Shown: positions 27,167 to 49,783 of the stretch, one piece after another
Layout of the letters: each line of letters opens with the position of its first letter
Numbering within the stretch: the first letter of the stretch is position 1
Assembly (NCBI GenBank): GCA_001803045.1
Contig: MHAR01000006.1
Location: forward strand, 1 to 64,000
Source: Ignavibacteria bacterium RIFOXYB12_FULL_35_14
GTDB lineage: Bacteria > Bacteroidota > Ignavibacteria > Ignavibacteriales > Ignavibacteriaceae
Length of the DNA: 64,000 nt
Direction of reading: 5' to 3'
Program-made: the position numbers and the translations under genes
Notes under the pieces: generated by a model
The model's database searches: none
What the model saw: the letters and a program-made list of their open reading frames with translations, nothing else
Told to the model about the DNA's origin: nothing

Positions 27167-28807
27167 ATGACATATAAATTTACATTAATCTTACTCGTAT
27201 TCAATTCGTTTTTACTAATTGCACAGCCGCGTTTAGAAATAACTCCCGATGATATTGAATTTGAAGACATATTTCATCGTAATAAAAATGTTCTGTTCAT
27301 TAATACCGGAGATGATACTTTAAGAATAGATTCGCTTGTTTACCGAAATTATTATTATTTCCTGAGGTTTGATAAGCCATGGGAATATCCCGTTTTTCTT
27401 CAGCCAAATGATACGCTTAAGATGGATTGTATTTTGGAAAGTCATGTCTATGTACCTGCTACAGATACAACCGACACACTTTTTATTTACAGCAACGGTC
27501 TTAAGCCGCTTGAAAAGTTAAAAATAAAAATAAAGTATTATGATGATGATTACAGAATGGGATATTTAGCGGGACAAATAACAGATGGCGGAACTCCAGT
27601 CGATAGTGCACATCTTTATTTCTTCTACAATAATAATTATATCATCAAATCCGTTGTAACTGATCAGAATGGGTTGTATAACGTAAGTCTTCCTCCCGGG
27701 CTTTATGCAATTGCTGTTGAAAAAGATTCATATTATGTGTCTTTCTATAACAATCAATACGACCCTTTTAATGCGGATTTGATTTCACTTCAAAAAGATT
27801 CAACAAAGACAATAAATATTCAAATGGATAAAATGTCATTCACCGGTAATTCTATTTCGGGAATTATAACTGACTCTATTACCCTTGCAGCTGTAAAAAA
27901 AGGTGTAATTGTAGTCAGAACCGGTACGCACACACCAAATAAAATTTCTTCGGGAGTAAACAGCCGCATTTTATTAAATGGGATTTACACTGCTTTCATC
28001 AAATCGGACGGTTCGTACAATATTCAAAATGTTATTGTGCCAGGGCATTATTTTGTTCAAGCGTTTTCCGATTATTATATGCCAGCTTACTATAATTTTG
28101 CAAATAAATCCGCAGTCTTTTGGCAGCAGGCAGATTCGATTTACATAAGCGGTTCGTTATCAAATGTAAATGTGGTAATGGCAAGAGACTCATCGGTTGG
28201 AGGCGGCAGAATAAATGGCACTGTCACTGTAAATTCACAATCAGTTAATCTTTCCGATGTTATGGTGCTTGCAAAATCAACTGATTACAATTTGTGGTAT
28301 AACTATGGATTTCTTAAGGATAACAACGAGTTTAAGCTGACAAATCTTCCGTACGGAAATTATAAGCTGTTCGCACAAAAGATTGGTTTTAACGATGGGG
28401 AGAGTACGGATTTACAAATTACTCAATCCACTAAAGAGATTAACGGAGTGAACATCCAAATTATTATCACATCAGCAATAGATGAGAAATTCCTGCCGGA
28501 TGAATTTACGCTTTACCAGAACTTTCCGAATCCGTTTAATCCGGTAACGAAGATACGATATGCGATACCGTCAAACGTGAAACGTGAAAGGTCAAATGTG
28601 ATGTTGAAGGTTTATGATATACTTGGGAATGAAGTAGCAACACTTGTGAATGAAGAACAAGAACCTGGCTATTATGAAGTAGAATTTTCCACCAAAGGTG
28701 GATCCGCTTCTGGCGGAAATGCTCTAAATATTGCAAGCGGGGTATACTTTTATCGATTAACAAGTGGTAGGTTTGTTTCAACAAAAAAGATGTTGATGAT
28801 CAAGTAA
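27167..28807 (+). CDS. T9SS-sorted secreted protein with carboxypeptidase-like Ig domains
   Basis: 546 residues. A signal peptide (1-19, ending LIAQP), an N-terminal beta domain with EITPDDIEFEDI (about 22-120), two or three carboxypeptidase-regulatory-like beta sandwiches (about 130-230, 235-340, 345-440; e.g. GQITDGGTPVDSAHLYFF), and a C-terminal type IX secretion tail (about 450-546) with FTLYQNFPNPFNPVTKIRYA and KVYDILGNEVATLV. It is exported and probably attached to the cell surface. Two 15-bp palindromes are inserted in frame in the tail (28688-28717, residues TKGGSASGGN). Confidence 0.88.
   Translation: MTYKFTLILLVFNSFLLIAQPRLEITPDDIEFEDIFHRNKNVLFINTGDDTLRIDSLVYRNYYYFLRFDKPWEYPVFLQPNDTLKMDCILESHVYVPATDTTDTLFIYSNGLKPLEKLKIKIKYYDDDYRMGYLAGQITDGGTPVDSAHLYFFYNNNYIIKSVVTDQNGLYNVSLPPGLYAIAVEKDSYYVSFYNNQYDPFNADLISLQKDSTKTINIQMDKMSFTGNSISGIITDSITLAAVKKGVIVVRTGTHTPNKISSGVNSRILLNGIYTAFIKSDGSYNIQNVIVPGHYFVQAFSDYYMPAYYNFANKSAVFWQQADSIYISGSLSNVNVVMARDSSVGGGRINGTVTVNSQSVNLSDVMVLAKSTDYNLWYNYGFLKDNNEFKLTNLPYGNYKLFAQKIGFNDGESTDLQITQSTKEINGVNIQIIITSAIDEKFLPDEFTLYQNFPNPFNPVTKIRYAIPSNVKRERSNVMLKVYDILGNEVATLVNEEQEPGYYEVEFSTKGGSASGGNALNIASGVYFYRLTSGRFVSTKKMLMIK
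28688..28717. repeat. Tandem 15-bp palindromes inside a coding sequence
   Basis: TCCACCAAAGGTGGA (28688-28702) abuts TCCGCTTCTGGCGGA (28703-28717). Both are hairpins with short loops and of the same TCC...GGA design seen elsewhere in the window. Together they add ten codons, in frame, to the conserved T9SS tail, where relatives have a short turn. Confidence 0.8.
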
Positions 28808-39021: not shown

Positions 39022-40050
39022 TTACTTTAAATAAAATGGTGGATACTCTTCAATGTCGCCGCGGATATACCGTGCAAGCAATTGTGCTTGGATATGCGGC
39101 AGCAAGCCAATTGTCATTTTTTCACCAAGAAATGGATGAGTGATTTCTTCTTGTTTTCTTTTTTGATATGCTGTTAGCACTTCTTTCCGTGCACTATCAG
39201 ACATTCTTACTTCGCTGGATTCTCTTATTTCAAAATCTTTTTTTGTTACTTGTTTTAAGTTGATGAGATTCAGCATTATTCTATCGCCAAGATATGCACG
39301 GAATTCCTCCATGATGTCTAATGCAAGACTCGGGCGACCTGATCTTATTTGGTGAAGAAAGCCAACCTGCGGATCAAGTCCGGTTGTTTCCACTGCTGAT
39401 CGAACATCATTTGCAATGATCGCATACAAAAAGGATAATAGTGCATTAGCCGGATCGAGCGGCGGGCGCTTTGTTCTTTGTGTAAATGTGAAATCTTCTT
39501 GCTGAGCTGTAATAAGCGAAGACAACACCCCAAAGTACAAAGTTGCACATTCACCCTCGTACCCGCGAAGCTCATTCAGACTTTCTGCGGCATGAATATT
39601 TGTCAATCTTCTTCCCATGGTTTCGGCTGCAAAAAAAACCGAGTCGGAGCAGTTATCCGGATGATTCCTTTGATGACGTAAAAGCAGATGACGATAATTT
39701 GTTACTTTCGCAGCAATTATTGGGCGGGCAATTGAAAGTGACTGTAATTCATTATCAGAAAGGTCATACTGTGCTTTCCGTAAAAGAACATTGCCTTGCT
39801 GCGCACCATACACCCGCGCAAGAAACTTTCCATTTTCCGATAGATAACTTATGCCGACATTATTCTCTGCGCAGAAGGCCATTAGTTGTGGAGTAAGCGC
39901 CTTGAACCCAAAGCATACAATGTTTTCTATTGAATAAATTGGCGCCTGAAATACTTTTTCGTTGTTGATCTCCACTACGAATGTTTCCCGTTCTTTGCGA
40001 ACAAAGGCATCGTCCGAAGTAATGTAAAGTGTGTTAAGATGTTTTTTCAT
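39022..40050 (-). CDS. cas1: Cas1 (type I-C integrase)
   Basis: 342 residues. The N-terminal beta domain (about 1-90) is followed by the alpha-helical catalytic domain. Metal-binding residues are recognisable: the Glu in LRGYEGECATLYFG (about 155-170), His in VGFLHQIRSGRPSLALD (about 222-238) and the Asp/Glu of DIMEEFRA just after. Integrates spacers together with Cas2, with Cas4 trimming the ends. 76 nt separate it from cas4, a gap that contains a perfect 15-bp inverted repeat. Confidence 0.96.
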   Translation of the reverse strand: MKKHLNTLYITSDDAFVRKERETFVVEINNEKVFQAPIYSIENIVCFGFKALTPQLMAFCAENNVGISYLSENGKFLARVYGAQQGNVLLRKAQYDLSDNELQSLSIARPIIAAKVTNYRHLLLRHQRNHPDNCSDSVFFAAETMGRRLTNIHAAESLNELRGYEGECATLYFGVLSSLITAQQEDFTFTQRTKRPPLDPANALLSFLYAIIANDVRSAVETTGLDPQVGFLHQIRSGRPSLALDIMEEFRAYLGDRIMLNLINLKQVTKKDFEIRESSEVRMSDSARKEVLTAYQKRKQEEITHPFLGEKMTIGLLPHIQAQLLARYIRGDIEEYPPFYLK

Positions 40051-40070
40051 TGGTTATCCTTGCAATGGTT

Positions 40071-40121
40071 AAAGATGACATCTTTTCACGATACTAAATC
40101 ATACGGAAAGATGTCATCTTT
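40071..40121. repeat. Perfect 15-bp inverted repeat between cas4 and cas1
   Basis: AAAGATGACATCTTT (40071-40085) and AAAGATGTCATCTTT (40107-40121) are exact inverted copies with a 21-nt loop; each arm is itself nearly palindromic. A T run follows on the plus strand, which is the wrong side for terminating the minus-strand cas operon. It may be an inserted repeat, or may shape the cas4-cas1 mRNA. Confidence 0.75.
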
Positions 40122-40126
40122 TTTTC

Positions 40127-40780
40127 TCATGCTGTGTATAATCCTGAAATATAATTTTTAAGCTTACGCTTGTTCAATGCTTTGGGCTGGCAAATATCTA
40201 TCAGCGAACAGTTACGGCATTTAGCTGAGTACTCGGCAGTAGGAACAGTTTTACTTGAGACTATTTCTCTAACTGAAGCAATTACTTGTTCGGTTTGGTT
40301 TCTTAATTCATCATCAATTTCTATTGGATTTCTTCGACGGATTTTTCCGTAAAAAAACATTCCCTTGGAAATTTGTGTGCTCAGCATTTCTTCAAGACAA
40401 AGCACTTGAGCACAAAGCTGAACCTTATCGCTAATGTCTTCCTTAGGTTCACCTGACTTGAATTCGACCGGAAGAACTTCTTCGCTGTCATTCCGGTGAA
40501 AGCCGGAATCTCCTTCTTTGTTAATTCTTTTAAATTCAACCACATCGCATCTGCCAACGATGCCGTAGTTAAACGAATGAATTCTGAGACCGCGCACAGT
40601 TTTAACATCACCTCTTGTTTCATAGGTGTCCGTATCAACTTTATCATGAAGAATTTGACCTCGCACAGTAAAAAGATTTTCATTCCAAACATCATCAACA
40701 TGAATCAATCCGCATTGCCTCGGGCAATATATGTAATGCTGCAGTGCGCTGATCAGGATGAAATCGTCTTCAGTGAACAT
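40127..40780 (-). CDS. cas4: Cas4 (CRISPR PAM-selecting nuclease)
   Basis: 217 residues, RecB-like nuclease with iron-sulfur cysteines: CPRQCG (about residues 19-24) at the start and CRNCSLIDICQP (about 188-199) at the end. Nuclease core: GRCDVVEF (about 76-83), PVEFKSGEPK (about 102-111) and VQLCAQVLCLEEML. It trims prespacers and selects the PAM with Cas1-Cas2. Between the two core strands is an extra GDSGFHRNDS, encoded by a GTCATTCCGG-type hairpin inserted in frame (40490-40509), so the loop is longer than usual; the catalytic residues are preserved. Confidence 0.93.
   Translation of the reverse strand: MFTEDDFILISALQHYIYCPRQCGLIHVDDVWNENLFTVRGQILHDKVDTDTYETRGDVKTVRGLRIHSFNYGIVGRCDVVEFKRINKEGDSGFHRNDSEEVLPVEFKSGEPKEDISDKVQLCAQVLCLEEMLSTQISKGMFFYGKIRRRNPIEIDDELRNQTEQVIASVREIVSSKTVPTAEYSAKCRNCSLIDICQPKALNKRKLKNYISGLYTA
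40487..40510. repeat. GTCATTCCGG hairpin inserted in cas4
   Basis: ATTCCGGTGAAAGCCGGAAT (40490-40509) is a hairpin with a 7-bp stem and 6-nt loop, preceded by GTC and followed by C, a dispersed repeat type found in many bacterial genomes between genes. Here it is in frame in cas4, in the loop between two core strands. Confidence 0.75.
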
Positions 40781-40785
40781 ATAAA

Positions 40786-41829
40786 TTATTTCTTCCTGCG
40801 TTTTTTAGTCTTTTTAGCTGGAGCAATTTTCTTTAGTTTTTTAACTGCCTCCTCAAAATGTTTTTCCACTTCACTTGGTTTTTCAAGCAGTTTTTTGTGA
40901 AATTTTTCATATTCTGTCTCTGCTTTTGAAATTGCAGCTTCATGACTAATTGCGCCGGCATGTGTAAGAATTTCGTGTTCGCTTAATTTTAAGAAATCAT
41001 CCAGCTTTTCAATCCAGCCTTTCATGTACATTAACCTTCGGTTTTGTGCCTGGAGTTCAGCAAATTCCAAGTAGGCAGTTACAATCCGGTTAAGTGCATC
41101 TAATTCTTTCTCACTCAAATAATTTTTTGCAATTAAAACATCAGTTTTCTTTGGGGTTTTACCAGACCAGCTTGTTAGACCCATTGATGGAAGTAAAGCA
41201 TCAGCTCGTTTAGCAATTATTTCTGCAGCAGTATGACCGTGAGCAGCCCAATGCACTTTATTTTGAACTGTCGCGAAAAATTTTTGCGATATTTCGGTGT
41301 CTGGATTATAATCTACGCTTGTAGCATATAGATCAAGCACTTTTTTCCAAAACACTTTTTCGGAAGAGCGTATATCACGAATGCGTTCAAGCAGTTCTTC
41401 AAAATATTTTCCACCGCCAAGCTGTTTCATTCGTTCGTCATCAAGAACCAATCCTTTTATTAAATATTCTTTGAGCTGTTCAGTTGCCCAAATTCTGAAT
41501 TGAGTGCCCCGATACGATTTTACCCGGTAGCCAACAGCTATAATTGCATCAAGGTTATAGTAAAGCGTTTTATATTTCTTATCATCTGAGGCAGTTGTAA
41601 AGTATTCCTTGACAACTGAATCTTCTTGTAACTCACGCTCGGTAAATATGTTCTTAATGTGAAGACTGATATTTTGTTTGGTAGTTTGGAAAAGATCGGC
41701 CATTTGAGCTTGTGTAAGCCAAACAGTTTCACCTTTCCGATGGATCGTTCCGACAAGCCGGACTTCAATTCTGCTTTTCTGATCCTCGGTTGTGTAGAGG
41801 ATTATTTGGGAGTTCGGAGATTGGTTCAT
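40786..41829 (-). CDS. RhuM family protein inserted in the cas operon
   Basis: 347 residues. Seen: VWLTQAQMADLFQTTKQNISLHIKNIF (about 36-62), a winged-helix-like region, then LYYNLDAIIAVGYRVKSYRGTQFRIWATEQLKEYL (about 89-123), hallmarks of the RhuM family. The central part (about 150-260) has LDYNPDTEISQKFFATVQNK-type and GHTAAEIIAKRADA blocks; the C-terminus is lysine-rich. RhuM was named from a Salmonella pathogenicity island and its activity is unknown; mobile-element relatives often accompany Bro-N proteins. It stands between cas7 and cas4, where type I-C loci have no gene. The ATG overlaps the stop of the broken Bro-N gene (ATGA). Confidence 0.88.
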   Translation of the reverse strand: MNQSPNSQIILYTTEDQKSRIEVRLVGTIHRKGETVWLTQAQMADLFQTTKQNISLHIKNIFTERELQEDSVVKEYFTTASDDKKYKTLYYNLDAIIAVGYRVKSYRGTQFRIWATEQLKEYLIKGLVLDDERMKQLGGGKYFEELLERIRDIRSSEKVFWKKVLDLYATSVDYNPDTEISQKFFATVQNKVHWAAHGHTAAEIIAKRADALLPSMGLTSWSGKTPKKTDVLIAKNYLSEKELDALNRIVTAYLEFAELQAQNRRLMYMKGWIEKLDDFLKLSEHEILTHAGAISHEAAISKAETEYEKFHKKLLEKPSEVEKHFEEAVKKLKKIAPAKKTKKRRKK

Positions 41830-42082
41830 GATAATCTTGGCCTTATAAAATATATTGTAATCATATCAAGGGGGGTACAAATTGTACCCCAGTTGGAATT
41901 CAACAGTTCATCTCGCTGCCGAAGTCTTTTTAAGTATTGCTTAATATCTGTGCTGTCTGTTAATGCCTCAACAACATCCGAGACCGAGAAATACCATTTC
42001 TGTTCTTGCTCGTTCCTCCGAAGGAGTCCTTCGGACATACGGAACGGATTTTTTTCGATTCAAATAATTTTATGTTTGCCAT
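41826..42082 (-). pseudogene. Bro-N-domain gene, broken by a palindrome and truncated
   Basis: From the ATG at 42082 the frame reads MANIKLFESKKIRSV, then is interrupted by a TCC...GGA palindrome (42017-42035) and soon meets a stop. The Bro-N match resumes in another frame: NEQEQKWYFSVSDVVEALT, YLKRLRQRDELL, WGTICTPLDM, and then ends after a few unrelated residues at the start of the RhuM gene. Removing a 20-bp insert restores SVW-NEQEQKW. Bro-N proteins are phage-type antirepressors. The 3' half expected for a full Bro-N protein is also missing. Confidence 0.8.
42017..42035. repeat. 19-bp palindrome inserted in the Bro-N gene
   Basis: TCCGAAGGAGTCCTTCGGA: perfect 9-bp arms around one base. 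The inferred insertion is 20 bp, which shifts the frame. Same TCC...GGA design as 28688, 32142 and 50628. Confidence 0.8.
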
Positions 42083-42165
42083 AAGCTTCCTTTCAAAGCG
42101 TTACAAAATGTGACTGTTACAAGAGTAGGGACAAATTGTACCTACACTTTGAGTGTTACTTTGTC

Positions 42166-43104
42166 TTAAGAAACATCAACAACTTTAAACGTTTCAGGAA
42201 ATGTTTTGCCATCAAGAAGAATTTCATAATCCGTAAACTCTCTTGCCGGTTTAGTTTCATCGTTTGTGCGTTTCCACGTTACTCTTTCAAACAGTTCATG
42301 TGCTGGTTTGTTGCCGAGAGCATCTTTATGTTTAAACACAACTAGTTTTCTTGTGCTCATAAGACCGCGTGCTGCTGAATGATCGTGATCAAACATTTGT
42401 TGCATTGCATTCCAAAAAATATCAAGATCTTCAGTTGAAAAACCGGTTCCATTTTTTTCATTAGCCAAGTGGGCAGAAATAAAACCGTGTGCACGGTACA
42501 AACCATAAGGTACGGTGTATTTGCGACCAAATGTGCGTTCTTTTTCTAAATCTTTTTCATTTGTTACTGCCATACGCGTAATACTATGCTCTAAAGCAAT
42601 CACTGGTTCAACCGAACGAGCAAATGTGAGTTGAACGGGACCCCGGACTTGTCCACCAGTCTTTCTAAGTTTCTTGTCGTCTACCGATTCGCCAACCTTT
42701 TCTTTATCACTGGTTGCAAGGACAGCACCAAAAGTTCGAATGTCATAAAACTTATTGCACATGTGTTTGCGTGTACTTTCTTCTGCATTCCTCTTTTCTT
42801 CTACTGACTTGATTGTCTTGCCTTTATTTGTTTCATCCCATGATGAAACAATTGCCCTATTCAAAACAGCTTTTTCCCGTACAAAAATCGCCCATGGTGG
42901 TACTGGATTTTCTTCATCTTTTTGTGGATGAGTTATTTGTAAATAGTTCCTTACTTTGCGTTTTAAGCAGACATCTGTTACTAGTCCCCCGCCTGTTTCT
43001 GCATCAATACGTGGTAAGTTTCCAGCATCTGGATCACCATTTGGATTTCCGTCTTTTACATCAAAGAAAAAGACAAAGTCATAGCGATTATTAATAGAAT
43101 TCAT
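42166..43104 (-). CDS. cas7: Cas7c (Csd2) backbone subunit
   Basis: 312 residues, RAMP fold. Seen: FVFFFDVKDGNPNGDPDAGNLPR-type start (residues about 10-30, the Csd2 signature), GGGLVTDVCLKRKVRNYL (about 37-54), FYDIRTFGAVLAT (about 118-130) and RGPVQLTFARSVEPV (about 153-167), then ARGLMSTRKLVVFKH. Multiple copies coat the crRNA in the type I-C Cascade complex. Located 2 nt after cas8c. Confidence 0.96.
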   Translation of the reverse strand: MNSINNRYDFVFFFDVKDGNPNGDPDAGNLPRIDAETGGGLVTDVCLKRKVRNYLQITHPQKDEENPVPPWAIFVREKAVLNRAIVSSWDETNKGKTIKSVEEKRNAEESTRKHMCNKFYDIRTFGAVLATSDKEKVGESVDDKKLRKTGGQVRGPVQLTFARSVEPVIALEHSITRMAVTNEKDLEKERTFGRKYTVPYGLYRAHGFISAHLANEKNGTGFSTEDLDIFWNAMQQMFDHDHSAARGLMSTRKLVVFKHKDALGNKPAHELFERVTWKRTNDETKPAREFTDYEILLDGKTFPETFKVVDVS

Positions 43105-43106
43105 TT

Positions 43107-43514
43107 TTATTCTCCTTTGTTAGAATTAATGGTTGTTTGTTCTAATTCATCAGAATCTTTTTTATTTGTAAAGAAATCCTGCTTTTGATGATAATACCCC
43201 AATGAAAAAAGAGCTTGTTGCTCCATTGACAAATGAGCCGGAATATTTAGTGCTACTAGTTTATCCATTATTTCCCCTTTGAGACTTTCAAAAAATCCTT
43301 TTGACTTTTCAATTTTGCCTAAATGATGTCCATATAATTTTTCCAATAATGGTAAAACACTTATTGGAGAAGATGAAAATGCACCATAAAATCGATCACG
43401 AATCCCGGCATTTGGCTCCTTATAATTATTCGCTGCATTCTGAGCCCTTTCAAGCACTGCGAAAAGTCTACCAAGTAGATAGCCAGGATTAGTATTTGTT
43501 TTATCTAAAGCCAT
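43107..43514 (-). CDS. cas11c: Cas11c small subunit, internal start within cas8c
   Basis: 135 residues in the same frame as the end of cas8c, from an ATG at 43514 (MALDKTNTNPGYLLGRLF). A strong Shine-Dalgarno, AAGGAGATCAC, lies directly before it although this is the middle of a gene. In type I-C systems the small subunit is known to be made by internal translation of cas8c, and this site fits. It would form the belly of the Cascade complex next to Cas8c. Confidence 0.75.
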   Translation of the reverse strand: MALDKTNTNPGYLLGRLFAVLERAQNAANNYKEPNAGIRDRFYGAFSSSPISVLPLLEKLYGHHLGKIEKSKGFFESLKGEIMDKLVALNIPAHLSMEQQALFSLGYYHQKQDFFTNKKDSDELEQTTINSNKGE

Positions 43515-44891
43515 TGTGATCTCCTTTTCATTTGGTTTGTGAATTCTGTTATAACGATTTAAACTTGCTTTAATAATTGATGCACGAGCACGATTAACAT
43601 TTTGCTCGGCACGAATTCTTCTAATACATTGTTGAATTAATGTTTGAGGATATGGTGTCCCATCAATAATACTTTCAATAACTTTGCTGGTTAAGTTTGG
43701 GGGCACATTTTCCATTTTATATTGCAATGCAGTAGAAGAAAGTATCTGGTAGAGCGAAAGTTTTTCTGGTTCGTTCGGACCGTGGATAATTTTAAAATCA
43801 TCAAAATGTTTTACAATATTTCGTCCGAATTCTTCTACTGAAGGTGTTTTCCAGAAGCGAACAGAAATTCTTGCTGCATTTGGTGCAAGTCCCAAAACAT
43901 AAAAATGATTATTCTTTTCTCTTGGTAATTGCCCGGTAAAAACAGCATCATAAAGTGAGTTTATAACTTTAACACCTTTATCAGGATCATCCTCTTTTGC
44001 TGATTGAGATGCGATTACCCAGGAAAAAATTTCTTCGGGATTAATAACCGTTGATGTTTTCTCAGACCAAAAAAGAACTGTTGTATCAGAAATAATTTTT
44101 TTATTAGTTGAAGAACTAATAAGATGCTTAAGAGCGGTACTATAAGCAGCTTCTGCTTTCATAGATATAGGTGCATTATACGCCTTTTCTTTTCCATAAG
44201 AATCGAAACCAGAGTTTACTTGAAAGGATACAAGTCTAGCGTTACTTTTTGATCCTATAATAGATGTTGGAGTATGAAGTCGTGCAATTGGACCTCTTTT
44301 ACCTGTAATTAAGCAAGCTGCTATAATTTTTTCACTATCTTCATCATTTTGATCTTCAGCAAAAAGTGATTTTTGATATGTCGCAACTGATTCTCTCTGC
44401 GGAACAAGTTCTGAATCTCCATCTACCCTAAAGGTTAAATTGCAACCGGGAATTCTTGAACAGTCCTCCCAATTTTGATGTTTTTTCACTTCAACAATCT
44501 GATTCGTTTCATAAAAAGATAAAACCGCATTTACTCCTTTATCTTCTTTCAATTCTTCTGGAAGAGATTTAATCTTATCAACAAAAGTTTGATTTTGTTT
44601 TCTAGCCATTTCAATCGACTTGGTAGATGATTTTTTAGGGTGTGCGAGAACAAAACCATAATGATCCCATAACAGAAAAGCAGTTTGCCATGAATTGGTA
44701 CCAGACCGTCCCACAGATTTTGGTAAAAGGAATTGTTTACCCTTTCTATTTTCTTTCAAATCTACTAAATCAATAAACCTTCCTTCTTTATTAATGATGA
44801 TAACAAACTTGATTTCTTTAATCTCGAATCCTTCCTGTGGTAGTGTGTCCTTTTTTCTTTGATAATATTCATACAATGCTTGTAGTATCAT
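43107..44891 (-). CDS. cas8c: Cas8c (Csd1) large subunit
   Basis: 594 residues, the usual Csd1 length. Starts MILQALYEYYQRKKD, typical of the family, and contains GRSGTNSWQTAFLLWDHYG-like (about 73-91), ACLITGKRGPIARLHTPT (about 208-225), FYVLGLAPNAARISVRFW (about 345-362), and the C-terminal helical part that is also made separately as Cas11c. Cas8c recognises the PAM. Its start overlaps the cas5c stop (ATGA), so the two are coupled. Confidence 0.95.
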   Translation of the reverse strand: MILQALYEYYQRKKDTLPQEGFEIKEIKFVIIINKEGRFIDLVDLKENRKGKQFLLPKSVGRSGTNSWQTAFLLWDHYGFVLAHPKKSSTKSIEMARKQNQTFVDKIKSLPEELKEDKGVNAVLSFYETNQIVEVKKHQNWEDCSRIPGCNLTFRVDGDSELVPQRESVATYQKSLFAEDQNDEDSEKIIAACLITGKRGPIARLHTPTSIIGSKSNARLVSFQVNSGFDSYGKEKAYNAPISMKAEAAYSTALKHLISSSTNKKIISDTTVLFWSEKTSTVINPEEIFSWVIASQSAKEDDPDKGVKVINSLYDAVFTGQLPREKNNHFYVLGLAPNAARISVRFWKTPSVEEFGRNIVKHFDDFKIIHGPNEPEKLSLYQILSSTALQYKMENVPPNLTSKVIESIIDGTPYPQTLIQQCIRRIRAEQNVNRARASIIKASLNRYNRIHKPNEKEITMALDKTNTNPGYLLGRLFAVLERAQNAANNYKEPNAGIRDRFYGAFSSSPISVLPLLEKLYGHHLGKIEKSKGFFESLKGEIMDKLVALNIPAHLSMEQQALFSLGYYHQKQDFFTNKKDSDELEQTTINSNKGE

Positions 44892-45649
44892 CTTCGTATC
44901 TCCTCACTTTTTATCGGTGGGATTTTGACAACACCACTTTCAATCCTTGCTTGGAAGAACATTGGTTTTGGGTCGTTCAAATCTGTAAAGTCCATGTCAA
45001 AAAGCATAAAACCAAGTTCTCTTGTTTCATCAATTGGGGTTACGGGTTCTTCTTCGGGATTTTTAATAAAACGGAAATTGCAGCTAAATTCACGTGTCCC
45101 AAAATAAGGTTGATTAAAGCACTGTCCTTTTGAAGCTCTTCTTTCAAAGATTGCCAGATATTTCCCCGGAGTTTCATCTGTGCGTTCTGTTTCTTGTTTT
45201 TCTTCCCAAGCTTTTATTTCTTCGAGCATAAAATCTTTTTCTTCAGGATCCCATAAATATTCAGGGACAATTGAATGTTTATTATTTTTTCTTTGCTCAA
45301 TGGGTATATACTCTAAGTCGGCAAAGAAACGATACCTTACATCACGCAGGAAATATCCGGCGCGCTGCTGACGATTATCTTCAATCAGTATTCCATTGCT
45401 TCGTGGACTCATAATTGCACCAACTTCATTTCGCCGGACTGAGATCCATTTTATAGGATTAAGTATTTCAATCTTTGTCGGATGCCATCGAATTGCAGGC
45501 TTCCAAAAAATCGATTCAAAAACAGCGCGTACTGATGAAGGTGTTGGGACATCATAGCTTACTCTCTCGACTTTCATTTCGGGTCGGGTAAAGCAGGCAT
45601 AATCACCCCAAACCTCAAGACAAAAAGGTTTGTGTTTTAAATTATTCAT
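44888..45649 (-). CDS. cas5: Cas5c (Cas5d) crRNA-processing subunit
   Basis: 253 residues. Seen: CLEVWGDYACFTRPEMKVERVSY-type start (residues about 10-30), TPSSVRAVFESIFWKPAIRW (about 36-55), LNPIKWISVRRNEV (about 62-75), GILIEDNRQQRAGYFLRDVRY (about 86-106) and CFNQPYFGTREFSCNF (about 178-193). In type I-C this protein replaces Cas6 and cuts the repeat RNA to leave the short 5' handle. It is 54 nt after cas3. Confidence 0.95.
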   Translation of the reverse strand: MNNLKHKPFCLEVWGDYACFTRPEMKVERVSYDVPTPSSVRAVFESIFWKPAIRWHPTKIEILNPIKWISVRRNEVGAIMSPRSNGILIEDNRQQRAGYFLRDVRYRFFADLEYIPIEQRKNNKHSIVPEYLWDPEEKDFMLEEIKAWEEKQETERTDETPGKYLAIFERRASKGQCFNQPYFGTREFSCNFRFIKNPEEEPVTPIDETRELGFMLFDMDFTDLNDPKPMFFQARIESGVVKIPPIKSEEIRR

Positions 45650-45703
45650 ACATATTTCCTCCTAATTTCATTTTAGGAATGATTAATTAAAATTTTTTAT
45701 TCT

Positions 45704-48034
45704 TCAGACAACGCCATTTCCAATTATCCAATCGCTTTCATTTCCTAATAATCCCAAACCTGGTTTATAAAGAATTGAATCACTTTGTATCCAATAACCG
45801 TGAATTGGTTCGATATAATTATTTTTTTGAATCCTGTTAAACATATTATTAGGATTTTTTTCATCATAAGGAACATTTACAATGAAACGCTGAAGTTTTC
45901 TGATCAAATTTTTTGATGGTCCAGCATATTTTAACTTTTCTATTAAATCAAAACTGTTACTTCCTGTGTTTTTGTTTTCATACCAAACGACAATACTTTT
46001 CTGAGCCATAGAGTCTATTAAGTTGAACTTTTGTGCAAATGTGCGAAATTGAAATGTAAAATCAGAAGCATCTTTTACTAAGTGGTTGTAGAATTCCGGT
46101 TCATCAAAAGTATTTAGATTTGTATATAAATATTTAAAGTAATCGGTATAAAGCCTTGGCGTTAATTCTTGATAAGATTGATTACGAATAATTGCCTTAC
46201 ATGCATCTTCACCTTTTCTTAATAAACCCGGTGGAGCTTGTTTTGGTGGATTGAATACAACAACATTTCCAATGTTTGGAAATAAATTATTCTCTCTGTT
46301 ACACCTTCCTGCAGCTTGAGCGATTGAATCAAGTCCTGCTAAAGCACGATAAACAACAGGGAAATCTATATCAACACCCGCTTCAACAAGCTGTGTGCTG
46401 ATAACTTTAATCGGTTCTCTATTTTTTAGTTTTGTTTTTATTTCAGAAATAATCTCGCTTCTTTCCTCACCGCACATAAATGCTGAAAGATGAACAGTGC
46501 CTTCCGGCATTAATGAATGAAGCTGTCTGCAATCATTTTTTGTATTTACAACACACAATACTTGATCAAAAGTTTTAAGTTCTTCAGCAATTTCTTCCCA
46601 ATTTTTTCGTTTATTTAGGTCGTCAGGAAATTTTATATCAACCCGTTTAAAAACTTTAGTGAGTGAATCTGGATCATCTATAATGTTTGTTATGTTCGTT
46701 AATCCTTCAAAAGAATTTGGTTCAATCCCAATCTTGCCTATTAAAGCAGGTTGAGTTGCTGTCATCATTACAACTGTTACTCCGAAATAATCGACCAAAC
46801 CTTTTAATACAGAAAGAATTGGCTTTAAGTATTCGGGTGGAAGCATTTGTGCTTCATCAAGGATGATAATGCTGTTTGTGATATTATGAAGTTTTCTGCA
46901 GGCAGAAGTTCTGTTGGCAAATAATGATTCGAACAACTGAACATTCGTTGTAACTATTATCGGTGCATCCCAGTTTTCAGCTGCCAAACGATTTTTACTT
47001 GATTCATTTTCGGGATCAAGATTACTATGATGTTCAACAACCTGATTTTCACCAAACAAATACTTTCCAATTTTCTTTCTTTGCTCTATCTCATCATTAT
47101 TGTCAGTACCATATTTAAATACTTTAGCAGTTTGTTCTATAATGCTTGTATAAGGGATTGCCATTATTATCCGCTTCTTATCATGCTTCAAAGCGTGATT
47201 TAGTGCGAATGCCATTGACGAAAGAGTTTTGCCTCCACCAGTAGGTACATTCAGAGAGAAAAACCCGGGTGGAAGACTTGCTTTGTTTCTGCACTGCTCA
47301 AGTATTTCGTTTCTTTTCTTATTTAATTCACTATCCGATTTTTTCTCTGTCATATAATTATCGAAAAGTTCTTTCAACTCAGAAAAAGAACGATAACCAC
47401 CCCGCCCTTTTTCATCCATATATTTCTCGGTATCAAGAAAGTCGGCATCAACAAGACAGGAAAAAAGCATTCTTACCCAAAGATGTAATTGTTCGTTTGA
47501 AGATTCATTTATTTTGTTTGAATCTTTATTTATAAAAACAGATGGAATTGTTTTTGGAATTGGCTTTTCAAGAAATTGTTTTGTCTCAGGTATGTTTTTT
47601 ATTATTTCAATATCTACAGTATTCAATTTACTATCTTCACCTAATAAACGAGTATCAAGATGAGCATACCAATCCGGTAATCCTGCATGGTGTCCTCCAA
47701 TCACATAAGCTAAAAGTTTTGCAGCAGGTGAATCATTAAATTTTACGAATGGCAAGACAGCACCAGCCGTACTATGGTTTGGTCTGTTATTGCTTTCTTC
47801 GATGTGTGCTTCAGGATCAAAACCAGATTTACGGCAAAGATATTTTTGCCATGCAGGAAGGAATTTTCCGAGGTCGTGCCAAAAGCCGACTAACTCGCCC
47901 CAATCTTTGTTTCCAAATTCTGAAGCAAAAGTACCTGCTTTATTTGCAGTATCATTAAGATGATCTACTAAGAAGTGTGGCTCTGCCCATGAACCATTCT
48001 CTTCTTGTTTTACATGCGCTATAAACTCTTTCAT
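45704..48034 (-). CDS. cas3: Cas3 helicase-nuclease
   Basis: 776 residues. N-terminal HD nuclease: FWHDLGKFLPAWQ (about residues 51-63), IEESNNRPNHSTAGA and VIGGHHAGLPDW (about 111-122). SF2 helicase: Walker A VPTGGGKTLSSM (about 262-273), DEAQ box ILDEAQMLPPEY (about 400-411), MTATQP (about 436), VEAGVDID (about 553-560) and motif VI IAQAAGRCNRE (about 572-582). It unwinds and degrades target DNA recruited by Cascade. First gene of the operon. An AAGGAG site lies 24 nt before the ATG, rather far, and AGAGATAGAG is closer. Confidence 0.96.
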   Translation of the reverse strand: MKEFIAHVKQEENGSWAEPHFLVDHLNDTANKAGTFASEFGNKDWGELVGFWHDLGKFLPAWQKYLCRKSGFDPEAHIEESNNRPNHSTAGAVLPFVKFNDSPAAKLLAYVIGGHHAGLPDWYAHLDTRLLGEDSKLNTVDIEIIKNIPETKQFLEKPIPKTIPSVFINKDSNKINESSNEQLHLWVRMLFSCLVDADFLDTEKYMDEKGRGGYRSFSELKELFDNYMTEKKSDSELNKKRNEILEQCRNKASLPPGFFSLNVPTGGGKTLSSMAFALNHALKHDKKRIIMAIPYTSIIEQTAKVFKYGTDNNDEIEQRKKIGKYLFGENQVVEHHSNLDPENESSKNRLAAENWDAPIIVTTNVQLFESLFANRTSACRKLHNITNSIIILDEAQMLPPEYLKPILSVLKGLVDYFGVTVVMMTATQPALIGKIGIEPNSFEGLTNITNIIDDPDSLTKVFKRVDIKFPDDLNKRKNWEEIAEELKTFDQVLCVVNTKNDCRQLHSLMPEGTVHLSAFMCGEERSEIISEIKTKLKNREPIKVISTQLVEAGVDIDFPVVYRALAGLDSIAQAAGRCNRENNLFPNIGNVVVFNPPKQAPPGLLRKGEDACKAIIRNQSYQELTPRLYTDYFKYLYTNLNTFDEPEFYNHLVKDASDFTFQFRTFAQKFNLIDSMAQKSIVVWYENKNTGSNSFDLIEKLKYAGPSKNLIRKLQRFIVNVPYDEKNPNNMFNRIQKNNYIEPIHGYWIQSDSILYKPGLGLLGNESDWIIGNGVV

Positions 48035-48253: not shown

Positions 48254-49183
48254 TTACAATCCAATTATTTCCTTCCTAGTATTCAACAAATCGAGATACT
48301 TTTCTTTCATAGGCGGGGAGAGAAAACTGATTTTGATCAATTCTTCCCAATCATCAAATGCAGATTTTATTTTGTCAAGAACTTGTGAAATGATTTTATC
48401 ATTTAGATTCAATCTCTCTTTCCCAAAGTAGTGAATCAAGATTTTTGAATTAAGATTTCGTTTCTTTCCTGCTAATGGGAGTGCAATTTCCCCCGGTTCG
48501 TTTGGTAATACAATCGTTGTATTTAACAAATCATAAGCTGGCGACAGTTCAATTTTGTTATCTCTTGTAATGATCGAAAAATTCTTTAAATGCATGTCCT
48601 CGTTGCCGATTAGGAAATTAAAAATTGTTAATCTAAACAGCTTAACTTTTTCTATAGCGGGGAAGGTACAGAAAGTATCAATAAGGTTTATTATCTTTTC
48701 CATAGTATAGTCATACTTTGTTTCTCTGCTTTTACCTGCAAGCTGTGCAAAATCTTCGATAGATAATTTTTTACTTTTTCCATAACGGTCAAATCTTTTT
48801 ATAAAATATGTGAGTTTCCTATCGGAAGAATAAATCATTCCACTCAGCGGCACTTCTATATCTATCATATCAGCTAATTTCATTGTTAAGGATTCATTCT
48901 CAGGTAACTCGGGATAAAAATTATTTTGCGGTTTAAGAATGTATTCTCCATTTCGATCCACGATATCAAAAATCCCATCCTTAACATTTAATCTTGCGCT
49001 AAGCTTTGGCTGAACGCCTTGTATCGACATCTTAGCTGCTCTAACTGCGGCTTCTCTTAACTGTTCTTCCTGAGTTAAAGCCAAATCATTTAAATGAACT
49101 AAATTTCTTGAAAGTAATTTTAATCCTTTGTTAGAGTATCTTGCATCACCACAAGGTTGATATGTTATTGGACAAATATTCAT
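48254..49183 (-). CDS. HipT-like kinase toxin (split HipA)
   Basis: 309 residues, the kinase core of HipA without the usual N-subdomain 1. Seen: a Gly-rich loop region MSIQGVQPKLSARL (about 52-65, SIxGVQPKLS being typical of the short HipT type), YILKPQ (ATP lysine, about 85), catalytic loop GNEDMHLKNFSI (about 195-206, Asp acting as base) and metal-binding LSPAYDLLNT (about 215-224). HipT of E. coli O127 phosphorylates tryptophanyl-tRNA synthetase; the target here is not known. Its ATG overlaps the HipS-like gene (ATGA). Confidence 0.85.
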   Translation of the reverse strand: MNICPITYQPCGDARYSNKGLKLLSRNLVHLNDLALTQEEQLREAAVRAAKMSIQGVQPKLSARLNVKDGIFDIVDRNGEYILKPQNNFYPELPENESLTMKLADMIDIEVPLSGMIYSSDRKLTYFIKRFDRYGKSKKLSIEDFAQLAGKSRETKYDYTMEKIINLIDTFCTFPAIEKVKLFRLTIFNFLIGNEDMHLKNFSIITRDNKIELSPAYDLLNTTIVLPNEPGEIALPLAGKKRNLNSKILIHYFGKERLNLNDKIISQVLDKIKSAFDDWEELIKISFLSPPMKEKYLDLLNTRKEIIGL

Positions 49184-49491
49184 TCAGTTTCCTCAACAGT
49201 TACCGAACCGACTAAATCTTTTCCAGTTATAATTAGTATTGAAAAAAAGTCATTGCGGTCTATCTTGGTTTGCCTTAGCAAAGCATCAAGTTGAATTCCT
49301 TCGGGTAATAATCCTTCAAAGAAAGGCGGAAATTCATCAAACAGATAATCTCTTTGTTTTGTAGGAAGTGTTAACGATATCGGAGAACCATTGTAATCAT
49401 CAGAATATTTGAACTGATACTTTTTCCTTTTTTCAAGTTCAATTAAATCACCTGCATACACTCCAAAGTTATAAACTTTAGCTTTCCTCAT
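49180..49491 (-). CDS. HipS-like protein (HipA N-terminal subdomain)
   Basis: 103 residues corresponding to the first subdomain of HipA (couple_hipA type): VYNFGVYAGDLIELEKRKKYQFKYSDDY, ISLTLPTKQ (the LP...P strand), and FPPFFEGLLPEGIQLDALLRQ (FFEGLLPEG being the family mark). In HipBST operons this separate piece is the antitoxin that blocks the kinase, unlike classic HipBA where HipB does so. It overlaps hipB by 14 nt and the kinase by 4 nt, so all three are co-translated. Confidence 0.85.
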   Translation of the reverse strand: MRKAKVYNFGVYAGDLIELEKRKKYQFKYSDDYNGSPISLTLPTKQRDYLFDEFPPFFEGLLPEGIQLDALLRQTKIDRNDFFSILIITGKDLVGSVTVEETE

Positions 49492-49714
49492 CTGATTTCT
49501 CCATTAAGTGAATTACGGGATTCGATAATTGCAACTTAATATTCAATACCGAAAAAACTTTTAGTAATGAATTTATTTGAACAGTTTCTTTTCCTTTCTC
49601 GATATCGAAGACGACGGTTTTTCCGACTCCTGCCAGGTCAGCCAGTTGTTTTTGTGTAACCCCGGCTTGCTTTCTCAGAAAGGCTATTACTTTGCCAATT
49701 TGCTTTGTTGTCAT
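49478..49714 (-). CDS. HipB-like XRE-family regulator
   Basis: 78 residues from the ATG at 49714 (MTTKQIGKVIAFLRKQAGVT). A longer frame opens at 49783, but its extra 23 residues are not HTH-like and would run through the predicted promoter and operator. Helix-turn-helix: AGVTQKQLADLAGVGKTVVFDIEKGKETVQ (about 16-45). It should bind DNA and repress the operon, using a palindrome just upstream of its ATG. Confidence 0.85.
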   Translation of the reverse strand: MTTKQIGKVIAFLRKQAGVTQKQLADLAGVGKTVVFDIEKGKETVQINSLLKVFSVLNIKLQLSNPVIHLMEKSDEES

Positions 49715-49718
49715 TTTA

Positions 49719-49734
49719 TACTGCCATGACAGTA
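49719..49734. promoter_or_regulatory. Candidate HipB operator
   Basis: TACTGCCATGACAGTA, a palindrome with TACTG/CAGTA arms, 4 nt before the hipB ATG. A related half-site GGCAGTA lies at 49869-49875 and inverted GCGGTAAA...TTTACCGC arms at 49800-49815 and 49853-49865. Binding by HipB is inference. Confidence 0.4.
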
Positions 49735-49754
49735 AATTATTTTGTTTTAGTTGT

Positions 49755-49783
49755 AAATTAACCCCATATAATCTTATAGTCAA
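49755..49783 (-). promoter_or_regulatory. Candidate promoter of the hip operon
   Basis: On the minus strand TTGACT (49783-49778), 17 nt, TAATTT (49760-49755), a sigma-70-like arrangement. It sits 40 nt before the hipB start with the operator between. Confidence 0.4.

Follow-up and report, generated by a model that had tools for sequence, protein, structure and literature searches.

A 30-bp double hairpin carried in frame by a T9SS sorting tail in Ignavibacteria and by conserved proteins of many phyla: a candidate very small mobile element

The 64,000-nucleotide stretch of DNA analysed here (the window), from Ignavibacteria bacterium RIFOXYB12_FULL_35_14, encodes a secreted protein whose T9SS sorting tail contains two adjoining 15-bp palindromes in the reading frame (Table 1). 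The locus raises the question of whether these palindromes are a native part of the tail or an insertion that the protein tolerates and, if the latter, what was inserted. The original prediction proposed a tolerated in-frame insertion that resembles Rickettsia palindromic elements (RPE). The two palindromes were found as it described. The added residues, given as TKGGSASGGN, fall in the same stretch but are shifted by one, and the real insert reads exactly S-T-K-G-G-S-A-S-G-G. The pattern TCCNCNNNNGGNGGA matches three times in the window, versus 0.12 matches expected, and none of 100 shuffles gave three.

Table 1. Features of the host gene and of the element, in window coordinates
Feature	Coordinates	Strand	Description
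Host gene	27167..28807	+	546-aa secreted protein; carboxypeptidase-regulatory-like domains and C-terminal T9SS type A sorting domain
T9SS sorting domain (TIGR04183)	28523..28792	+	Split by the element; 28.6 bits, a low score for the set of 150 tails in this genome
Hairpin 1	28688..28702	+	TCCACC-AAA-GGTGGA = TCCACCAAAGGTGGA; encodes STKGG; purine loop; arm pairs 6/6
Hairpin 2	28703..28717	+	TCCGCT-TCT-GGCGGA = TCCGCTTCTGGCGGA; encodes SASGG; pyrimidine loop; arm pairs 5/6
Complete inserted element	28688..28717	.	30 bp, 10 codons; absent from orthologues
Insertion site TT^AA	28686..28719	.	TT at 28686-28687, AA at 28718-28719; no target duplication

Searching the window protein in 41 genomes of its family returned 30 loci. 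Of these, 23 have alignable sorting tails, and the other seven have no tail by the pattern used and hence lie outside the tail alignment. Exactly these ten residues are missing from seven of the eight full-length orthologues aligned, and the eighth (G232) carries a different, shorter insert. The orthologue in G412, the sole genome of the same genus, is 60% identical and is among those that lack the residues. The original prediction had named the presence of the residues in every orthologue as the outcome that would speak against it; their absence favours insertion. The tail of G132 has NAIGGLNTGG at the insert position, which, judged by its residues, looks like a worn copy of the element.

Other features of the window were noted in passing. 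A second in-frame stretch in the same T9SS tail (28570-28605) reads SNVKRERSNV and contains GTGAAACGTGAAA repeats in its DNA. Similar stretches are present in the G418 and G411 tails and missing from most other tails aligned; this is perhaps another repeat insertion at another loop. Further downstream, positions 39022-48034 hold a candidate CRISPR-Cas type I-like set by the look of the sequence (Cas1, Cas4, and Cas7-, Cas8-, Cas5- and Cas3-like), with a putative RhuM/KilA-like gene among them. A predicted HipA-like kinase, split over two ORFs, adjoins a predicted HipB-like regulator at 48254-49783.

The motif is abundant in the genome. Across its 4.1 Mb, TCCNCCNRNGGNGGA occurs at 69 places and TCDGCCNRNGGCHGA at 27, and the reversed control of each occurs nowhere; these counts and the window shuffles reject a chance origin. 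Among the 190 15-mers that adjoin the 95 motifs of this genome, 22 are perfect 6/6 palindromes versus 0.1 by shuffling, in a count where partners were not chosen by the search pattern and pairs with both halves matching were counted from both sides. The outer arms of the partners vary yet stay complementary (TATGCC/GGCATA, TACGCC/GGCGTA, TGAGCC/GGCTCA, TCCGTC/GACGGA). Of the 122 pairs from other genomes, 85 have a purine as the middle base of the first loop and a pyrimidine as that of the second, which tends to make the 30-mer palindromic as a whole. The consensus is about TCCGCC-NNN-GGCGGA-TCCGCC-NNN-GGCGGA, i.e., two hairpins with 6-bp stems and 3-nt loops, arranged head to tail and spacer-less. 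The DNA strand of the element is computed to fold strongly (z about -4.5 to -5.3).

The pair differs from the single palindrome in its choice of site. In this genome, T lies two bases outside the element in 88% of the 40 flanks of 20 pairs, versus 41% of the 134 flanks of 67 single 15-mers. Six genomes rich in 15-mers (G066, G329, G333, G019, G255 and G053) have no pairs at all (6/6), and where flanks were inspected there, the single 15-mers look like parts of longer intergenic repeats. A single 15-mer in kbl corresponds to a net gain of about two residues relative to structure 7v58, not five. Because only pairs have a site preference and 15-mer-rich genomes can be pairless, the single 15-mers are a mixed population and the pair is the element of interest. 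The single 15-mer was rejected as the main mobile unit for these reasons and for its longer-repeat flanks. Thus, the palindromes are inserted, as predicted, but the unit is the 30-bp pair rather than the 15-mer. Between genes of other genomes we also saw pairs of 15-mers spaced by CAGG or CCTG (L318 and L323, L333 and L338); this hairpin-CAGG-hairpin form is a different arrangement of the same hairpin.

The clearest empty site is in valS. The valS gene of this genome carries SAEGGSASGG, and that of the same-genus G412, 92% identical, lacks the insert; the gain is exactly ten codons. Of 20 valS genes aligned, 17 are empty at the site, G140 has nine other residues there, and two (G000 and G418) have the pair at one codon boundary with different flanks. 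These two are far apart on the valS tree, with empty relatives beside each, and at least two changes are needed. The G418 site, TG^GA, is a rare form, so the recurrence at this boundary is unexplained by the site rule given below. In a predicted structure of the valS protein, the insert lies in a coil that links a strand to a helix, and residues 373-379 have pLDDT <50; the model is poor (mean pLDDT 66, pTM 0.49, 20 sequences) and lends weak support to a coil loop. Alignment with solved structures gives ten-residue gaps at the element for ValS (1gax), TsaD (4ydu, 3zet) and CysS (3sp1, 8qhp), and a nine-residue gap for AtpD (8spv). In CysS the insert comes directly before a stretch that we take to be a KMSKS-like motif.

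Overall, the 30 bp are present or absent as an exact block, mostly between the middle bases of T-N^N-A and without consistent duplication. Among the 244 flanks of 122 pairs, a count that leaves out pairs starting TCTGCC with a loop other than AGA, position -2 is T in 81% and position -1 is a pyrimidine (T or C) in 85%; the commonest forms are TT^AA, TT^GA and TC^AA. Of 36 inserts, 18 follow an F and 21 precede a K, the residues expected when T-N^N-A is split between codons. At the flanks of the 122 pairs, direct repeats of 2-5 bp are at chance level, 6-bp repeats occur at two pairs and 7-bp repeats at one (0.3 and 0.1 in shuffled sequence), and repeats of 8 and 9 bp were not found. The four long direct repeats at flanks lie within repetitive A/T-rich sequence. 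With 0-2 repeats of 2-9 bp per length among 122 pairs (shuffled 0-1.1) and an exact 30-bp gain in valS, the target-site duplication expected of a MITE of a DDE transposon was not seen. A transcription terminator was rejected, as an A-rich run follows the element on the strand read and the T-run is thus on the wrong side.

Read from its first base, the element encodes S-A-x-G-G-S-A-x-G-G; a shift of phase yields peptides that are basic or rich in proline. ORFs of 200 aa or longer hold 26 of the 95 motifs of this genome, 23 of them in the S-A-x-G-G phase and three in another (binomial p 9e-9 versus 1/3), in support of the predicted tolerance of a protein-coding insertion. Of the 122 pairs from other genomes, 57 fall within ORFs of 150 aa or longer: the S-A-x-G-G phase accounts for 37 and the two remaining phases for 11 and 9. 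Several off-phase pairs, near predicted starts, may lie outside the true gene. Of the 57 pairs, 47 (in 46 ORFs) were scanned with Pfam, leaving out seven actinobacterial-type ORFs with TCTGCC and G+C-rich loops, and three were aligned with solved structures.

Copies inside conserved domains are nearly all in the S-A-x-G-G phase. Among the 47 pairs scanned, 14 lie in this phase within a single Pfam domain: a T9SS tail, [FeFe]-hydrogenase, UvrD, HsdR, ALAD, glycosyl transferase 4, GH57, glycosyl transferase 1, RpoB, DUF3179, a PolX-type thumb, a methyltransferase, a Mur ligase and an Mfd-like helicase. Two pairs in another phase, in an IscS-like aminotransferase (L190) and a Cu-oxidase_4 protein (L189), are inside a domain or between its matched stretches. 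In other hosts, named from their Pfam domains, the pair lies between domains or near ends (DnaG, UvrB, GyrB, DnaE, PheT with two copies in one gene, PGK, GrpE, L15, L3 and a Clp-type ATPase). The T9SS tail, the host originally noted, is thus one type of many, as housekeeping genes of several phyla also carry the pair. In this genome, 12 T9SS tails carry the motif, and 11 of the 20 pairs sit in such tails by our reading, so some of the copies may stem from duplication of tails.

The pair pattern was found in at least 117 stretches of a species-representative genome collection. Among the 80 of these 117 with titles listed, we assign 42 to Patescibacteria lineages and eight to Omnitrophota; further taxa among the matches listed include Ignavibacteria, Kiritimatiellae, Elusimicrobia, Zixibacteria, Stahlbacteria and Chloroflexota. 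A few matches in Streptomyces and Micromonospora have other arms and loops and may be unrelated to the element. Within the phylum of the window, distribution is patchy, with at least one canonical 15-mer in 122 of 395 genomes. Nearly all genomes compared are metagenome assemblies. One scan of a viral collection for the canonical pair pattern returned a single viral contig, and phages were rejected as carriers.

By a script test, none of 134 pairs breaks an intact tRNA gene. Of five sites inspected more closely, four are degenerate tRNA copies that contain the pair (L059:1500-1766 on C89 of this genome, L234:1844, L237:2327 and L143:6927). The pair lies in the D-arm region (e.g., CAGTT^GG) of these copies, each of which precedes an intact tRNA gene (for Met, Thr, Asp or Val) by about 45-190 bp. 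At L059 there is also a second worn Met tRNA copy with a single 15-mer.

From these sequence comparisons, we consider it likely that the 30 bp belong to a very small non-autonomous mobile element, of which they are a single copy: a double hairpin with presence/absence variation among genomes. The best reading is that it works like RPE and REPINs and belongs to neither. The S-A-x-G-G-S-A-x-G-G peptide would form a soft Gly/Ser/Ala loop that a protein can bear, and selection would purge the other phases while keeping S-A-x-G-G copies as near-neutral passengers. By loose analogy, a trans-acting enzyme could recognise the folded hairpins and cut at T-N^N-A; HUH/Y1 transposases recognise the hairpins of REPINs and of IS200/IS605 ends, and move REPINs. 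More tentatively, we see it as quite possible that these 30-bp double hairpins form one family across phyla, perhaps the smallest mobile elements known to code for protein, which follow the T-N^N-A rule without duplication and are moved by a putative widely shared machine. They would time and again supply essential proteins with one and the same flexible loop of ten residues, above all in Patescibacteria and in other lineages that are known chiefly through metagenomes.

A possible but rather unlikely account dispenses with a transposase: the palindromes would arise and spread through slippage during replication, through template switching or through single-stranded hairpin DNA being joined at T-N-N-A sites, and gene duplication and conversion would spread them among T9SS tails. 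The search for a mobiliser was negative, the motif recurs in the tails of this genome, and the pair occupies the same position in tails from other genera, all as such processes would allow. However, they sit poorly with the fixed 30-bp length, the sharp two-sided site preference, the similar sequence in distant phyla and the gains of valS inserts in separate lineages.

We regard it as unlikely that the element is a REP/REPIN for which a RAYT (Y1, HUH) transposase encoded in the same genome serves as mobiliser. The likeness to REPINs (PMC3116915) is an inverted pair of short hairpin-forming palindromes with compensated arms and no target duplication. Specifically, the two inverted palindromes do form one larger hairpin, by loop order in 85 of the 122 pairs and by the DNA fold. 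Counts of Y1_Tnp genes and of motifs are weakly correlated (rho 0.35, p 0.02, 43 hand-picked genomes), and one Y1_Tnp gene, L296 in G039, has five motifs around it, in a multi-hairpin repeat array with units containing TCCGCCTCTGGCGGA. Against this, the L296 motifs are parts of a longer repeat, and L296 is the one locus of 38 Y1 loci with a motif nearby. Y1_Tnp genes occur in nearly all genomes tested, motif or not, and G168 has 17 motifs and no Y1_Tnp. Neither the 43 genomes nor the 38 Y1 loci yielded a transposase tied to the element. The consensus and the flanks of 122 pairs lack GTAG or CGTC at the palindrome end, and neither the pattern used nor the neighbouring 15-mers of this genome revealed a spacer between the palindromes. 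A RAYT as mobiliser is not supported.

This genome does have a Y1_Tnp gene with palindromes on both sides (L135, C12:26320-29700), the weakest of its nine Y1_Tnp matches. These palindromes, GGAACAGCC-TCCT-GGCTGTTCC and GGAATGACC-AGGA-GGTCATTCC, are unlike the present motif. Being flanked by its own palindromes, L135 is the sole RAYT-like Y1_Tnp seen in this genome, and it is likely a RAYT accompanied by REPs of its own, which differ in kind from the motif; its different palindromes count against a RAYT origin of the element.

It is improbable that the hairpins persist because they are useful (for mRNA stability, translation pausing or linker function) instead of being passengers: the strong folding of the DNA strand and the complementary arms would suit this, but empty orthologues are common, host genes are unrelated, and copies also occur intergenically and within degenerate tRNA copies. 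That the residues are a native loop, conserved in this family of T9SS tails, is rejected and scarcely credible, given that orthologues including the same-genus one lack the residues, which refutes it for this gene, and that the same DNA is found in unrelated genes, even though T9SS tails of other secreted proteins in G421 and G140 have the nearly identical SAKGGSASGG at the same place.

How does the double-hairpin element compare with known systems? RPE are palindromic DNA found in frame in conserved protein genes, and also in intergenic regions and RNA genes, with tolerance demonstrated for at least one host protein (PMC2229807). In-frame palindromic insertion in conserved protein genes is shared by RPE, the protein-coding palindromes of Wolbachia and the present element, bearing out the likeness originally proposed. 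In contrast, RPE are 105-146 bp with terminal inverted repeats and were described from Rickettsia, whereas the present element consists of two spacer-less hairpins, adds a net 30 bp in valS and in the window gene, and occurs in many phyla. Intragenic GTAG/CGTC REPs are reported from Opitutus terrae, Rickettsia conorii (RPE-4/RPE-6) and others, often in replication and repair genes and sometimes twice per gene or, in two species, at nearly matching positions (PMC3733652). Like the present element, these are short palindromes and pairs within ORFs, but they carry a GTAG or CGTC tag and their pairs or groups encode 20 to 30 residues; the present element is tagless and encodes ten.

In REPINs, an inverted palindrome pair is the unit of spread and single copies form another population (PMC3116915). 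REPIN/RAYT systems and IS200/IS605-type ends share this arrangement with the present element; REPINs, however, have a spacer, are intergenic and adjoin their RAYT, none of which we found to characterize the present element. Cyanobacterial small dispersed repeats and organelle double-hairpin elements are, like the present element, very small dispersed hairpin or palindromic repeats, but they are not known as cross-phylum in-frame inserts. A literature search with the DNA and peptide strings of the element, and for palindromes in Patescibacteria or Ignavibacteria, in which subscription journals were thinly covered, returned nothing on it. Protein-coding palindromes as such are not new; what these searches did not turn up is a 30-bp form lacking a spacer, the T-N^N-A site or a spread across phyla.

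Protein-coding palindromes have so far been known mainly from Rickettsia, Wolbachia and a few REP-rich genomes. Here the inserted unit is much smaller and follows a sharp insertion rule, and it is in frame in RpoB, UvrD, AtpD, TsaD, CysS and other conserved proteins of many phyla. Such loops in proteins from metagenomes need not be functional, a caution for their interpretation. The many empty-site pairs are material for finding the mobiliser. The element provides natural ten-residue insertion experiments in conserved proteins, and a route from mobile DNA to new protein loops.
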